Positions 9,969 to 47,828 of a stretch of 64,000 nucleotides of DNA are shown piece by piece. Numbering within the stretch: the first letter of the stretch is position 1; each line of letters begins with the position of its first letter. A model generated the notes under the pieces. The model saw nothing but the letters and a program-made list of their open reading frames with translations, did no database searches and was not told the origin of the DNA. A program made the translations under genes and the position numbers. The DNA is from Pseudozobellia thermophila (lineage in GTDB: Bacteria; Bacteroidota; Bacteroidia; Flavobacteriales; Flavobacteriaceae). Location of the stretch: positions 7,790 through 71,789 of the forward strand of contig NZ_FQYU01000005.1 of assembly GCF_900141855.1 (NCBI RefSeq), given 5' to 3'.

Positions 9969-9987
9969 AATTGGAATAAATGCTAAT

Positions 9988-10017
9988 AGGGCCCGCTCCC
10001 TTCTTGGGTTCGGGCCT
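9988..10017 (+). other. Intergenic hairpin between metY and the fusion gene
   Basis: AGGGCCCG (9988-9995, one bulged G) pairs with CGGGCCT (10011-10017), with an inner CCC/GGG (9998-10000/10006-10008). No T tail follows. It may tune downstream expression or mRNA decay. If real, it argues that the fusion gene starts at 10031 and not at the upstream in-frame ATG at 9980. Confidence 0.4.
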
Positions 10018-10030
10018 AATTGAACCACGT

Positions 10031-13000
10031 ATGCTTCATCATCTTAAATTAAAGAATTATACCACCCTGGGCAACGTAACCCAGGACATTGAGCTTTCGT
10101 ACCAGCTGTTCGGCCAAGAACTGCACAGCGCCCCTATTGTATTGGTCAACCATGCACTAACCGGTAACTCCAATGTAACCGGTGACGGCGGTTGGTGGTC
10201 TGCGCTCATAGGCGAAGGCAAATGCATAGACACCAGGAAGTATACCATTTTGTCGTTCAACATTCCCGGAAACGGCTATGACAAGTTCATTATAGAAAAC
10301 TACAAGGATTTTGTGGCGGGCGATATCGCCCGTATCTTTCTATGGGGCCTCGAACAGCTGCAGATTAAAAAATTGTATGCCATTATCGGCGGCTCCCTGG
10401 GTGGGGGTATCGCTTGGGAAATGGCGGCCCTCGACCCCAAGATTACCGAACACCTGATTCCCGTGGCGTCGGACTGGAAGTCTACCGATTGGTTGATCGC
10501 CAATTGCCAGATCCAAGAGCAGTTTTTGGTCAATTCGAAAAAACCCGTTCACGATGCCCGTATGCACGCCATGTTGTGCTACCGTACGCCGGAGTCGTTC
10601 AAGGAACGCTTTAAACGGAGTACCAACGAGGAACTCCAGGTCTTTAACGTAGAAAGTTGGTTGATGCACCACGGCGAAAAACTGCAAGAGCGCTTTCAGT
10701 TGTCGGCCTATAAGCTGATGAACCAGCTATTGAAGACCATCGATATTATGCGCGACGGCGACAAAAACTTTATCGAGCTTCAGAACAGCGATATGAACAT
10801 CCATATCGTCGGGGTAGATTCGGATCTGTTCTTTACCGCCAAGGAAAACAAGGAAACCTTTAAGCAACTGGCACAGGCGCAGAGCAACGTAACCTATGGC
10901 GAGGTGCACAGCCTGCACGGCCACGATGCCTTTTTGATCGAATTCGATCAGATGGAGCAACTCTTACTGCCCATATTTAGTCAAAACGGAAAGTCGAAAC
11001 GTTTAAAGGTATTGAAGTTCGGGGGAAAGTCGCTGGCCAATGGCGAAGGCTTGGGCAGGGTACTCGACATAGTTGCCCGCAAGGTGAACGAAGGCGAGAA
11101 CATTGCCGTGATCCTTTCGGCCCGTGGCAAGGCCACCGACCGGATCGAGGAGCTCTTGGACAAGGCCGCTTCGGGTAAGAACTACTACAAGGATTTTGAG
11201 GAGTTCGAAAAATACCAAAGGCATACCTTTAAAAACGTGAACCTGTCCGCAGAGTTCAAGGAGTTGGCCAAATTGCTCGAAGGGGTTTCCCTATTGGGCG
11301 ATTACAGCCCGAAAATTAAGGACCAGGCCCTGGCTTTTGGCGAACTCATTTCTGCCAAACTGGTGAGCAAACTATTGATAGGGCGAGGGGTATCGGCCGA
11401 ATTTGTCGATTCGCGTAAGTTGCTGAAGACCGACTCCAATTTTGGCGATGCCTCGGTCGACGAGGCCCGGTCAAAGGAAAATATCCTTAGGCATTTTGCG
11501 CACTTAGACCACGACACGGTGCCCGTTATTACCGGGTTTATCGCATCGAACGAACAAGGGGAGACCACCACCTTGGGCCGAAATGGAAGCAATTATTCGG
11601 CAGCCCTTTTTGCCAATTTTCTAAATGCGGACGAGCTTCAGAACTATACCCATGTCGACGGTATTTTTACGGCCAACCCCGATTTGGTGCCCGATGCCAG
11701 GCGAATAGCCAACCTTTCGTACGGCGAGGCGAATGAGCTGGCCAATTTTGGTGCCACCATATTGCACGCCAAGACCATCATCCCGCTTATCGAAAAGAAC
11801 ATTCCCCTGCGTATTCTTAACACCTTCAACGACGATAACGAGGGTACCCTGATCAGCGCCAAGACCACTAAGGGGGGCATAAAATCCCTGTCGGTCATTG
11901 AAAACGTTTCCCTGATCAACTTGGAGGGGAGGGGACTCCTCGGCAAGGTGGGTATAGACGCACGGATTTTCAGGGCGCTCGAACAGAACAACATCAGTGT
12001 GAGCATCGTTTCACAAGGCTCGTCGGAGCGCGGTATCGGCCTGGTGGTCGATTCCGACAAGGCCTTTAGGGCCAAGAAGGCCCTCGATGCCGAATTTGCC
12101 GGCGATTACCGATCCAAAGACATCAATATGATCACCGTACTCGATGAGGTATCGGTCATATCGGTGGTAGGGCAGGACCTAAGCACCTTCCACAAGCCCT
12201 TCAATGCCTTGATCAAAAACCAGATCGTTCCCTTGTTGTTCAATAACACGGTTTCGGGAAAGAACGTAAGCCTAGTGGTCAAAAAATCGGACCTGCACAA
12301 GGCGCTTAACGTGATGCACGGACAGATATTCGGCATCAGCAAGAAGGTGAACCTGGCCATTTTCGGCCACGGCAACGTGGGAGGAACCTTGATCGGACAG
12401 ATCCTGCGCTCGAAGAAGACCATCGAAGAACGAAAGGGCATCGACCTGAACGTATTTGCGGTTGCCAACTCAAGGCAGTTGCTGTTGGAGAAGAAGGGAA
12501 TTTCGAAAAACTGGAAAAAGGCCCTGGAGGAAAAGGGCGAGGCCTATAGCTATCGAAAGGTTATCGACTACGCCAAAAAGCATCATTTGGAAAACCTGAT
12601 CGCCGTCGACAATACCGCCAACGAGGATTTTGTCGCCCATTATTTTGAGTTGGTGGAAAACGGTTTCGACCTCGTGTCTTCCAACAAAATAGCGAACACG
12701 CTCAGGTTCGATTTTTACAAGCTGCTGCGCGAGGAATTGGCCAAACACCAAAAACAATACCTGTATGAAACCAATGTGGGGGCGGGCCTTCCCCTGATAG
12801 ATACGATAAAGCTATTGCACCTTTCAGGCGAGAACATCACCCGGATCAAAGGAGTGTTTTCGGGGTCGCTCAGCTATATCTTCAATACCTTTTCCGAAGC
12901 GGACCAACCTTTTTCGGCCATTTTAAGGGAGGCGATGAAGAAGGGCTATACCGAGCCTGATGCCAGGGAAGACCTCTCGGGCAACGATGTGGGCAGAAAA

Positions 13001-43525: not shown

Positions 43526-43555
43526 TTTGATTTTTAAATATAATTGTTACTTTAG
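43526..43555 (+). promoter_or_regulatory. Promoter of the pheA attenuator transcript
   Basis: TTTG (43526-43529) and TACTTTAG (43548-43555, one mismatch to TAnnTTTG) are 18 nt apart. Transcription would begin near 43562, just before the leader peptide. Confidence 0.5.
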
Positions 43556-43573
43556 CCGAAGTTTAAGTGTACA

Positions 43574-43645
43574 ATGTCAAACCAATATTTCTTTAACGGT
43601 TTTTATTTCTACTTCTTTTTTAAAAGAGGTATGGGACCGTTATAG
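43574..43645 (+). CDS. Phe/Tyr-rich leader peptide of pheA
   Basis: A 23-codon frame starting MSNQYFFNGFYFYFFFKR and ending at TAG 43643-43645. Ten of residues 5-16 are Phe (7) or Tyr (3), which is far from chance for such a short frame. It lies directly after a promoter and before a terminator, ahead of prephenate dehydratase. Slow reading at these codons, when charged tRNA-Phe or tRNA-Tyr is scarce, would set the RNA fold. Too short for normal gene calling. Confidence 0.85.
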   Translation: MSNQYFFNGFYFYFFFKRGMGPL

Positions 43646-43700
43646 AATATTGAAGCCAAGATATTATGTAAAAGTCCCGTGAAAAACGGGACTTTTTTTT
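43594..43700 (+). promoter_or_regulatory. Transcription attenuator with alternative hairpins
   Basis: Hairpin 1:2 is TAACGGT (43594-43600) / ACCGTTA (43636-43642), enclosing the Phe/Tyr codons. Hairpin 2:3 is ATGGGAC (43631-43637) / GTCCCGT (43674-43680). Hairpin 3:4 is the terminator AAAGTCCCGT (43671-43680) / ACGGGACTTT (43686-43695) with a T run to 43700. Segments 1:2 and 2:3 share bases, and 2:3 and 3:4 share bases, as in classical amino-acid attenuators. Confidence 0.82.
43671..43700 (+). terminator. Terminator of the pheA attenuator
   Basis: A 10-bp perfect stem with a 5-nt loop and eight T residues. It ends 30 nt before the pheA ATG. Confidence 0.85.
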
Positions 43701-43730
43701 GTTTAAAGAATATAGATTTTTAATTAAACC

Positions 43731-44558
43731 ATGAATTTGAAAATAGCCATACAGGGAATCAAAGGCTCTAATCACCACCAAGTAGCCAAAGAGTACTTTG
43801 AAGACGATAGTCAATTGGTAGAGTGTATGTCTTTCGATTTTCTTGTAGATAGGCTGTTGGATAAAACCGCCGATGTGGGGGTTATGGCAATCGAAAACTC
43901 GATTGCGGGCTCGATTATCCCTAATTATGCCTTGGTATACCACAATAACCTGCATATAATCGGGGAACATTACTTGAACATCAACCATAACTTAATGGTC
44001 TTGAAAGGGCAGGGAATCGAAGATATAGAGGAGGTAAGGTCGCACCCCATGGCCTTGCTGCAATGCAAGGAGTTTTTTAAGGACTATCCTCAAATTAAAA
44101 TGGTGGAAGATGTAGATACGGCCGAGACCGCCAAGTGCATTCAAGAGCAAAAATTAAAGAACGTGGCGGCCATCGCCCCGAGGGTTGCCGCCGAACTTTA
44201 TGATTTGAACATCGTAGCGCCGGAGATTCAGACCATTAAAAATAATGCAACCCGCTTTATCATTGTAAAGACTAAAAACAAAGAGCTGCCCAAGTCGGAA
44301 ATCAACAAGGCTTCGGTACGGTTTGTTACCGGCCATAAGCGTGGAAGCTTGGCCGCTGTGCTTAACGTGATGAGTGATTGCCGATTGAATTTAACAAAAA
44401 TACAGTCACTGCCCATAATCGAGACCCCTTGGAAGTATGCCTTCTTTGTCGATGTCACTTTTGAGGAATATGAATATTTTGAGAAGTCGAAATCGCTTTT
44501 GAACATCATGGCAGAGGATTTCAAGGTTTTGGGCGAATATAAAAATGCCAGGATATGA
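43731..44558 (+). CDS. pheA: Prephenate dehydratase
   Basis: 275 aa. It converts prephenate to phenylpyruvate. IENSIAGS (54-61) and the catalytic TRF motif (174-176) are present. The C-terminal ACT domain (about 193-270) has TKIQSLP where Phe-sensitive enzymes have TKIESRP, so feedback by Phe may differ. There is no chorismate mutase domain; that activity is on the DAHP synthase. It overlaps the aminotransferase start by 4 bp. Control by a Phe/Tyr leader attenuator is likely. Confidence 0.94.
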   Translation: MNLKIAIQGIKGSNHHQVAKEYFEDDSQLVECMSFDFLVDRLLDKTADVGVMAIENSIAGSIIPNYALVYHNNLHIIGEHYLNINHNLMVLKGQGIEDIEEVRSHPMALLQCKEFFKDYPQIKMVEDVDTAETAKCIQEQKLKNVAAIAPRVAAELYDLNIVAPEIQTIKNNATRFIIVKTKNKELPKSEINKASVRFVTGHKRGSLAAVLNVMSDCRLNLTKIQSLPIIETPWKYAFFVDVTFEEYEYFEKSKSLLNIMAEDFKVLGEYKNARI

Positions 44559-45703
44559 TACATACGGCAAATCGTTTACATACGGTAGAAGAATATTACT
44601 TCTCTAAAAAGCTTAGGGAGGTACGCGGACTTATGGCCCAGGGCCGGCCCATTATCAATATGGGTATCGGGAGTCCTGATCTGGCCCCGTCCAAGGAAAT
44701 TATAGAAAGCATACAGAATGCGGTATGGGAAGAGGGCGCGCACCAGTACCAGAGCTATCAAGGCCTGCCCGAATTGCGCGAGGCCATTGCAGGCTTCTAC
44801 CGCGATAAATTTCGGGTGGATGCCGATCCCGTCAACGAAATTTTACCCTTAATGGGGTCTAAGGAAGGTATTATGCACATCAGTATGGCCTTTTTGAACG
44901 AAGGGGATGTCGCACTTGTTCCGAACCCCGGTTACCCGACCTATACCTCGGTAACCAAGTTGGTAGGTGCGGAAGTAAAATACTATAACCTCAATGCCGA
45001 AGGCGGATGGTTTCCCGATATCGATGCCCTTCGCCAGAGCGACCTGTCGAATGTAAAAATCATGTGGGTATGCTATCCGCATATGCCAACGGGGGCTACG
45101 GCAAGTTTGTCGCAGTTCGAAGAGCTCGTGGCCTTTGCCAAGGAAAAGGATATTCTTTTGGTGAACGACAACCCGTACAGCTTCGTGCTCAACGATGCGC
45201 CGTCGAGCATTTTGGCCGTTGAAGGGGCAAAGGACGTGGCCCTTGAACTGAATTCATTGAGCAAGACCTTTAATATGGCCGGGTGGCGCGTAGGTATGGT
45301 CTTGGGAAGTGCCGAGCACATCAATGCCGTTCTTAAGGTGAAGAGCAATATGGATTCGGGAATGTTCTATGGCATCCAAAAGGGGGCGATTACCGCCTTG
45401 AAGAGCGATAAGGCTTGGTTCGATTCGCTAAAAGAGGTGTATGGATCTCGAAGAAATTTGATCTTCGAGCTGGCCGATAAGTTAAACTGTACCTACGATA
45501 GAAAAGCGGTAGGTATGTTCGTGTGGGCCAAGTTGCCACAGGGAAGCAAGGGTGCCGAGGATTTTATAGATGAGGTATTGTACGACAAGAATATATTCAT
45601 CACCCCCGGAACCATTTTCGGTAGTAACGGAGAGGGGTATATACGCTTCTCGCTTTGTGTGGCGGAAGATAAGATTAAGGAAGCAATAAGTCGATTTGAA
45701 TAA
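44555..45703 (+). CDS. Class I/II aminotransferase, probably aromatic
   Basis: 382 aa PLP enzyme with K237 in SLSKTFNMAGWRVG and the NDNPY motif near 205. Context between pheA and tyrA points to transamination of phenylpyruvate and hydroxyphenylpyruvate to Phe and Tyr. The sequence alone would also allow aspartate- or LL-DAP-type substrates. A 4-bp overlap with pheA and an 18-nt gap to tyrA show an operon. Confidence 0.9.
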   Translation: MIHTANRLHTVEEYYFSKKLREVRGLMAQGRPIINMGIGSPDLAPSKEIIESIQNAVWEEGAHQYQSYQGLPELREAIAGFYRDKFRVDADPVNEILPLMGSKEGIMHISMAFLNEGDVALVPNPGYPTYTSVTKLVGAEVKYYNLNAEGGWFPDIDALRQSDLSNVKIMWVCYPHMPTGATASLSQFEELVAFAKEKDILLVNDNPYSFVLNDAPSSILAVEGAKDVALELNSLSKTFNMAGWRVGMVLGSAEHINAVLKVKSNMDSGMFYGIQKGAITALKSDKAWFDSLKEVYGSRRNLIFELADKLNCTYDRKAVGMFVWAKLPQGSKGAEDFIDEVLYDKNIFITPGTIFGSNGEGYIRFSLCVAEDKIKEAISRFE

Positions 45704-45721: not shown

Positions 45722-46585
45722 ATGAACGTATTCGTTGTAGGTGTTGGTTTGATCGGGGGGTCTTTTGCAAAGGACATTAGGCGTTTGCGGCCCCATACCA
45801 CCCTGTTTGGTATTGATGTGAACGAAGATCATTTAGACCAAGCCTTGGAGCTTGGCCTTATAGATAAGAAGGCCGGTTACGACCGATTGGGGGAAGCCGA
45901 TATGGTTATCGTGACCATTCCCGTAGATGTTATGGTCGAACAACTTCCCAAAATTCTCGATCTCGTAAACGACGACTGCCTGGTCTTCGACGGCGGCTCG
46001 ACCAAGAGCTTGATCTGTAAGGTGGTGGAAAACCATGGGAAGAGGCGGAACTTTTTGGCGGCACACCCCATTGCGGGAACCGAGTTTTCGGGCCCTTCGG
46101 CCGCAATCGAAAATTTGTATGAGGGCAAGACCAATATTATTTGCGAGGTCGAAAAAACGGCCTTTAAACTCCAGGAAAGGGCCTTGGAGCTTTTTCGGGA
46201 AATGGGGATGCGTATCCGGTATATGAATCCGAAGGCACACGACAAGCACATTGCCTATGTGTCGCATTTGTCACACATCAGCTCATTTATGTTGGGAAAG
46301 ACGGTTATCGATAAAGAGAAGAACGAACGTGATATTTTTGACATGGCGGGAAGTGGTTTTGAGAGTACCGTAAGGCTGGCCAAGAGTTCGCCGGCCATGT
46401 GGACCCCCATTTTTAGGCACAACAAGGAAAATGTCGTGGAGACCCTCGAAGAGTATATCCAAAACCTTCAAGAATTTATGGAGTTGTTGAAGAACGATGA
46501 TTACGAGGGGATCTATAAGGAAATGAACGATACCAACAAGATCAGGGAAATTTTGAACGGAATACCCTTGAACAATAAGCAATGA
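45722..46585 (+). CDS. tyrA: Prephenate dehydrogenase
   Basis: 287 aa. NAD(P)-binding VGVGLIGGSFAKD at 6-18, HPIAGTEFSGP near 115-125 and a helical dimerisation domain after 170. It makes 4-hydroxyphenylpyruvate for Tyr. There is no ACT domain. The last residues (NNKQ) are encoded by the first unit of a short repeat that continues into the downstream gap. Confidence 0.93.
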   Translation: MNVFVVGVGLIGGSFAKDIRRLRPHTTLFGIDVNEDHLDQALELGLIDKKAGYDRLGEADMVIVTIPVDVMVEQLPKILDLVNDDCLVFDGGSTKSLICKVVENHGKRRNFLAAHPIAGTEFSGPSAAIENLYEGKTNIICEVEKTAFKLQERALELFREMGMRIRYMNPKAHDKHIAYVSHLSHISSFMLGKTVIDKEKNERDIFDMAGSGFESTVRLAKSSPAMWTPIFRHNKENVVETLEEYIQNLQEFMELLKNDDYEGIYKEMNDTNKIREILNGIPLNNKQ

Positions 46586-46745: not shown

Positions 46746-47828
46746 ATGGAAAACAACAAAGAAATGAGAAAATGGTTGGATGACCTAGGCTTGGATCATC
46801 CATTGGTCATTGCCGGGCCATGTAGTGCGGAGACCGAAGAGCAGGTATTGGGCATTGCCCATAGTTTGAAAGATACCGATGTAAATTACTACCGCGCCGG
46901 TATTTGGAAACCCCGTACCCGACCCGGGAACTTTGAAGGGGTAGGGGCCTTGGGCCTTAAATGGCTGCAACGCGTCAAGGAGGAAACCGGAATGAGGACG
47001 GCTACCGAAGTGGCCAACAGGGCCCATGTCGAATTGGCCCTTGAGCACGATGTCGACCTATTGTGGATCGGTGCCCGGTCTACGGTGAGCCCCTTTATCG
47101 TTCAGGAAATCGCCGATGCCCTCGAAGGAACCGATAAGGTGGTCTTGATCAAAAACCCGGTGAATCCGGATCTATCGTTGTGGTTGGGTGCCGTTGAGCG
47201 TTTGGCCACCGCCAATATCAAAAACCTTGGGGTGATCCATAGAGGGTTCTCTACCTATGCCAAGACCAAATACCGCAACATACCCGAATGGCAGTTGGCC
47301 ATTGACCTGCAGACCCGTTTTCCCGATTTGCCCATCATCAACGATCCATCGCACATCACCGGTAAGCGCGATATGATTTTCGATGTGTCGCAAACCGCGT
47401 TGGACCTTAATTTCGACGGGTTGATGATCGAAACGCACCACGATCCCGACAATGCGTGGAGCGACGCCGCCCAGCAGGTAACCCCTGACAGCCTGGTGCA
47501 GATCATGAGGGATTTGAGAATAAGAAAGGAAAGCGACAGCGAGGCCGAGTACAATTCCAAATTGAACAACTTGCGGGCACAGATCGATATACTCGATGGC
47601 CAGTTGATCGAGACCATGGGCAAACGGATGAAGATTTCCGATAGCATTGGGGCCCTTAAAAAGGAAAAGAACGTGGCCGTACTCCAATCGAACAGATGGA
47701 ACCAGATTTTGGGAGCCATGATCTTGGAAGGCGAATCACAAGGGCTCAGCGAAGAGTTTGTGTTGAAAGTGTTCAAGGCGATACACCAAGAATCGATCAA
47801 CCACCAAGAGAAAATTATCAAAGGATAA
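46746..47828 (+). CDS. DAHP synthase with C-terminal chorismate mutase
   Basis: 360 aa fusion. Residues 1-255 are a DAHP/KDO8P synthase-type barrel (IAGPCSAE at 22-29, then YYRAGIWKPRTRPGNFEG, INDPSHITGKR, IETHHDP). Residues ~265-355 are an AroQ chorismate mutase (LRAQIDILDGQLIETMGKRM). It starts the shikimate pathway and also makes prephenate for PheA and TyrA. A gap of 160 nt with repeats and a possible promoter separates it from tyrA. Confidence 0.94.
   Translation: MENNKEMRKWLDDLGLDHPLVIAGPCSAETEEQVLGIAHSLKDTDVNYYRAGIWKPRTRPGNFEGVGALGLKWLQRVKEETGMRTATEVANRAHVELALEHDVDLLWIGARSTVSPFIVQEIADALEGTDKVVLIKNPVNPDLSLWLGAVERLATANIKNLGVIHRGFSTYAKTKYRNIPEWQLAIDLQTRFPDLPIINDPSHITGKRDMIFDVSQTALDLNFDGLMIETHHDPDNAWSDAAQQVTPDSLVQIMRDLRIRKESDSEAEYNSKLNNLRAQIDILDGQLIETMGKRMKISDSIGALKKEKNVAVLQSNRWNQILGAMILEGESQGLSEEFVLKVFKAIHQESINHQEKIIKG

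Follow-up and report, generated by a model that had tools for sequence, protein, structure and literature searches.

The leader of enterobacterial pheA combines a Phe-rich leader ORF, a terminator and an alternative antiterminator ahead of the prephenate dehydratase gene, and the attenuators of trp, his, ilv and thr operons follow the same logic with other control codons. The curated Rfam family of pheA leaders (RF01859, Phe_leader) is, as far as is known, proteobacterial. In ribosome-mediated attenuation the first ribosome must match the pace of RNA polymerase, and Bacteroidia ribosomes hardly use Shine-Dalgarno sequences; transcription-translation coupling in Bacteroidia is, to our knowledge, an open question. 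The attenuation survey that Lopatovskaya and co-workers made in 2010 may have included Bacteroidetes. The accepted range of attenuation was still narrow in 2010 (PMC2965389), and a map of B. thetaiotaomicron drew attention to short ORFs that resemble leader peptides (PMC7366714). The F. psychrophilum transcriptome (2021, PMC9723704) gave strong indications that amino-acid operons are under leader-peptide attenuation, with a conserved 5' structured element at pheA and hisG in F. psychrophilum and other Flavobacteriaceae. The latter element is shared with the locus described here in gene and in bacterial family; the main-text passages on it do not give leader codons, antiterminator covariation, Trp codons, a class-wide range or tandem copies (PMC9723704).

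In the window, a stretch of 64,000 nucleotides from Pseudozobellia thermophila, a leader of this type lies behind a predicted Bacteroidetes-type promoter and ahead of an operon that makes the amino acids whose codons it carries (Table 1). All four enzymes of the operon were confirmed by Pfam/NCBIfam, with pheA as the first gene, and together they represent the Phe branch, the Tyr branch and the entry step, which also feeds Trp. Ten of the 23 leader codons encode Phe (seven) or Tyr (three), all of them within residues 5-16. An ORF with 10 Phe or Tyr in 12 codons appeared in none of 5000 dinucleotide shuffles, and none of the other ATG ORFs of 10-40 codons on both strands of the window has even seven; the leader ORF is far beyond chance. 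The leader RNA folds far better than its shuffles (z = -5.6). Its terminator, a 10-11-bp stem of segments 3 and 4 with a T8 tract, ends 30 nt 5' of the prephenate dehydratase gene, and the 3:4 hairpin forms in every folding of the window leader. Pairing of the segment 2 core with 43672-43680 forms an antiterminator (2:3) that is mutually exclusive with both 3:4 and hairpin 1:2. Of the three hairpins, the latter shows the weakest conservation, with a probability of 0.89 in the window and an overall mean of 0.74 versus 0.54 when segment 1 is shuffled, a modest gain. The initial annotation had listed a promoter, the 23-codon frame with its seven Phe and three Tyr, mutually exclusive hairpins 1:2 and 2:3 and a 10-bp terminator with T8 just before pheA, and had read them as a ribosome-sensing attenuator like those of enterobacterial pheA and trp operons. 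Each element was recovered, the predicted transcript start (about 43560) falling 2 bases from the 43562 given there, and conservation of the leader frame and terminator supports the reading.

Table 1. Features of the pheA leader and operon in the window.
Feature	Coordinates	Strand	Basis or remark
-33 element TTTG, Bacteroidetes-type promoter	43526..43529	+	Sequence; TTG at the same distance in 72 of 106 relatives
-7 element TACTTTAG	43548..43555	+	TAnnTTnG 5' of leader ATG in 99 of 106 relatives
Leader peptide ORF, encoding MSNQYFFNGFYFYFFFKRGMGPL	43574..43645	+	23 codons; stop codon 43643-43645; without Shine-Dalgarno sequence
Segment 1	43583..43618	+	Pairs with segment 2 if ribosome-free
Core control codons Phe-Tyr-Phe-Tyr-Phe-Phe-Phe	43601..43621	+	Sequence
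Hairpin 1:2	43594-43603 with 43633-43642; 43610-43618 with 43623-43631	+	Folding of full leader
Segment 2 core ATGGGACC	43631..43638	+	Antiterminator 5' arm; overlaps leader codons 20-22
Segment 3 AAAAGTCCCGT	43670..43680	+	Common to antiterminator and terminator
Segment 4 ACGGGACTTTT	43686..43696	+	Terminator 3' arm
T8 tract of intrinsic terminator	43693..43700	+	Sequence
pheA, prephenate dehydratase with ACT domain	43731..44558	+	PF00800, 9.4e-57
Class I/II aminotransferase	44555..45703	+	PF00155; 4-nt overlap with pheA
Prephenate dehydrogenase (tyrA-type)	45722..46585	+	PF02153/PF20463; PRK08507 over cut-off
DAHP synthase fused to chorismate mutase	46746..47828	+	PF00793 and PF01817

The window leader works like RF01859 but is outside the curated family: the model matches it over its full length at 36.1 bits (E = 5e-4) and its relatives at 30-32 bits, and neither the window nor the relatives reach the gathering cut-off of 55 bits. 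Other weak Rfam matches (AgrB, PyrR, Thr_leader and others) were rejected as chance-level or resting on the shared terminator. In contrast to the enterobacterial pheA leader, Tyr codons and, in the class, Trp codons are mixed in, the ORF has no Shine-Dalgarno sequence, and the operon adds tyrA and DAHP synthase; convergence and descent from a common ancestor are equally likely sources of the resemblance. The mechanism is classical, and the present work contributes the codon content, the covariation, the range, Trp, initiation without a Shine-Dalgarno sequence, and the tandem forms.

Judged by sequence, this operon has the same device in front of it in most of the Bacteroidia sampled. The closest named genomes by PheA are those of Pricia and Zobellia (85-86% identity), and an aromatic leader with terminator is present at 27 of the 30 best-matching pheA loci (all except L017, L022 and L026), at 79 of 79 named Flavobacteriaceae loci (a count that excludes one further locus beginning inside pheA), and at 11 of the 14 loci taken from farther out in the same family and order. 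The leader ORF also occurs in 14 of 14 further Flavobacteriaceae and in 15 of 17 representatives of other families of the class, 12 of which have a script-called terminator; one copy (L072) starts with GTG. No leader was found at other-class PheA genes outside this PheA clade (L099-L103, L188-L196, L201-L203), and all four other-class genomes with a Bacteroidia-type PheA have one (L184-L187, from G124, G190, G212 and G072), the sampled members of their own families possessing a different PheA without a leader. On the PheA tree, the distribution of the leader takes 3 changes, versus 10.3 expected from shuffled labels. The simplest reading would be that the leader arose once, long ago and along with the operon, that it was lost twice, and that it was transferred jointly with the operon, perhaps between classes. 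A comparison of leader frames among relatives had been proposed as a check in the initial annotation, along with the suggestion that such control evolved or persists in flavobacteria; the frame is conserved, nearly always with a terminator, and the suggestion can be sharpened, in that the control appears to be old in the class and to track one PheA clade.

Read in the frame of the leader, the core codons of 36 lineages comprise 186 Phe, 119 Tyr and 19 Trp; the other two frames of the same DNA give 87 and 87 Phe, 11 and 18 Tyr, and 0 and 7 Trp. Tyr and Trp are enriched only in frame, and the Trp count is 10-fold that of shuffles (1.9). These counts bear on the possibility that a T-box, a metabolite riboswitch or a protein-bound attenuator drives the terminator, the ORF being a by-product of U-rich RNA: Phe codons arise naturally from such RNA, but the off-frames lose Tyr and Trp, no T-box or riboswitch was matched in Rfam (the T-box family model had no match in the window at E up to 5), and no sequence or structure is conserved besides the ORF, the antiterminator and the terminator, so that this explanation is very improbable. 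Trp codons occur in half of the 36 lineages at varying positions. Leader residue 7 is Trp (YFWNG) in most leaders of the Maribacter/Muricauda group, F or Y in Pricia and Zobellia, and Phe in the window, whose leader reads Phe and Tyr codons only. The free interchange of F, Y and W at this one place is not what would be expected of a functional small hydrophobic peptide with an incidental terminator behind it; the ORF is kept in nearly every relative, as such a peptide might be, but its length (17-39 aa) and its non-aromatic residues vary, and its C-terminal codons track RNA pairing (KRGMGPL versus SKRNETLYV), which leaves a peptide function scarcely credible. Since half of the lineages have Trp codons, attenuators of this class probably respond to Phe, Tyr and Trp alike, and general sensing of aromatic amino acids fits an operon that includes DAHP synthase. 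The earlier remark that mixed Phe and Tyr codons suit an operon making both amino acids stands for the window leader, whereas for the class it has to be widened to mixed aromatic codons, Trp being enriched as well.

Segments 2, 3 and 4 change jointly among the relatives: the clade of the window has GGGAC/GTCCC/GGGAC, and elsewhere the triplets are GAGAC/GTCTC/GAGAC, AGGAC/GTCCT/AGGAC, GAGGC/GCCTC/GAGGC, AGAGG/CCTCT/AGAGG, GAGCGGTC/GACCGCTC/GAGCGGTC and others. Duplex energies were compared between each lineage's own partners and the partners of other lineages, in a set of 36 lineages that has 35 distinct versions of segment 3. Own pairs average -10.9 kcal/mol versus -7.3 kcal/mol for 2:3, and -15.0 kcal/mol versus -8.0 kcal/mol for 3:4; in a permutation that ignores shared ancestry, none of 20,000 rearrangements equalled the own pairs of either kind, among the 36 lineages or among 27 loci. 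Segment 2 was placed too late for L031, L078 and L095 in the 36-lineage comparison, which weakens the result rather than strengthening it. Ancestry alone is an unlikely cause of the covariation, since so many distinct triplets occur. Segment 3 has to fit segment 2 as well as segment 4, and the three-way covariation of the two mutually exclusive structures, antiterminator 2:3 and terminator 3:4, therefore provides direct evidence, of a comparative kind, that both alternative structures are evolutionarily maintained. Compensatory changes are present in the terminator across relatives, and RNAalifold on a MAFFT alignment recovered the terminator alone; that alignment puts segment 2 one column out of register from clade to clade, which is why 2:3 was assessed by duplex energies. 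A mere terminator for upstream transcription, with the pheA promoter behind it, would account for the presence of a terminator but is hardly worth considering, since its arm co-varies with leader segment 2, a promoter-like element precedes the leader and does not follow it, and the terminator serves no upstream gene, gldA being on the minus strand and the nearest upstream gene on the plus strand ending 1.1 kb away.

The position of the control codons agrees with regulation by a stalled ribosome. The distance from the last aromatic codon to segment 2 is 8-12 nt in 27 of 27 loci, and such constant spacing is what ribosome-stalling control requires. If the ribosome footprint is assumed to reach about 10 nt beyond the codon at which it stalls, stalling at almost any of the aromatic codons frees segment 2, and the probability of 2:3 averages 0.84 with segment 4 still unmade; under the same assumption, a ribosome at the stop codon covers segment 2 and the probability of 3:4 is 0.95.

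The -33 and -7 elements of the window match the Bacteroidetes promoter type, the consensus of which is TANNTTTG (PMC6847099). An SD-like core precedes only 4 of 106 leaders, and 77% of the leaders have A at -3, 67% at -6 and 63% at -12, a Kozak-like arrangement; A at these three positions promotes initiation in F. johnsoniae (PMC6847099). The leader of the window itself has A at -3 only, with none at -6 or -12. The combination of rare SD sequences and Kozak-like A residues in the 106 leaders is the pattern of translated F. johnsoniae genes, and this initiation context supports translation of the leaders as a class.

From what the sequence shows, namely the leader ORF, alternative pairings that evolve jointly, the geometry, the position and the operon content, it is highly probable that pheA is controlled by classical ribosome-mediated transcription attenuation; translation of the leader ORF, stalling, coupling and changed read-through are the steps that we infer. 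As RNA polymerase transcribes the leader, a ribosome would initiate at the SD-less ATG (43574). When charged tRNA-Phe or tRNA-Tyr is scarce (or tRNA-Trp, in half of the lineages), the ribosome would stall in the aromatic run and mask segment 1, leaving segment 2 free to pair with segment 3, so that the terminator would be blocked and transcription would read through into pheA, the aminotransferase gene, tyrA and the DAHP synthase gene. When the tRNAs are charged, a ribosome at the stop codon would mask segment 2 and the 3:4 terminator would form; with no ribosome, hairpin 1:2 would sequester segment 2 and transcription would stop too.

The covariation strongly supports control of this kind in the greater part of another Gram-negative class, the second. 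Attenuation requires coupling, and the conserved leaders would therefore be a natural reporter that makes coupling in Bacteroidia directly testable. A broader proposal, which we give about an even chance, is that the leader is a class-wide, SD-independent sensor of all three aromatic amino acids guarding the common aromatic pathway by way of the DAHP synthase in the operon, that its origin is independent of the enterobacterial pheA attenuator, that it travels with the operon between classes, that some lineages have multiplied it into tandem attenuators of two or three steps, and that it implies tight transcription-translation coupling in Bacteroidia.

At two loci a tandem pair of aromatic leader ORFs precedes pheA, with a terminator-like hairpin after each ORF (L197:739-1003 and L198:808-1100), and the second leader of L197 includes a Trp codon. 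Three tandem leader-plus-terminator units precede pheA in a genome from another family of the order (G059, L062:1621-2050), although this triple is known from one genome, 83% complete, and could be an assembly effect. The PheA of L062 ends after approximately 185 residues and seems to be without the ACT (feedback) domain. Tandem leader-ORF attenuators are found in Salmonella mgtCBR, where they read different signals, ATP and proline (PMC3641672); mgtCBR resembles L197 and L198 in having two leader ORFs in one leader (three in L062), but the tandem units of these three loci all have aromatic codons.

Further leaders in the genome of the window were sought at hisG, trpE, ilvD and thrA. Those of hisG (MKNRNTHHHHFYTGSQAR, with HHHH; L054), trpE (MNGINTNTWWWNNSRQIS, with WWW; L060) and ilvD (MIAKYTKVVVDLVISGGK, a Val leader with VVVDLVI; L056) are each followed by a terminator hairpin, which suggests that attenuation is a general strategy in this genome. 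A candidate thrA leader (MSNIDRNRIFTPFQNGFTATTGTITPLG, with FTATTGTIT; L057:1066-1152), before a second aspartate kinase/homoserine dehydrogenase, has no clear terminator and is not claimed. Elsewhere in the window, a single frame (9980-12811 and on; L058:770-3601) encodes a homoserine O-acetyltransferase (MetX) part followed by aspartate kinase/homoserine dehydrogenase, a fusion of three activities.
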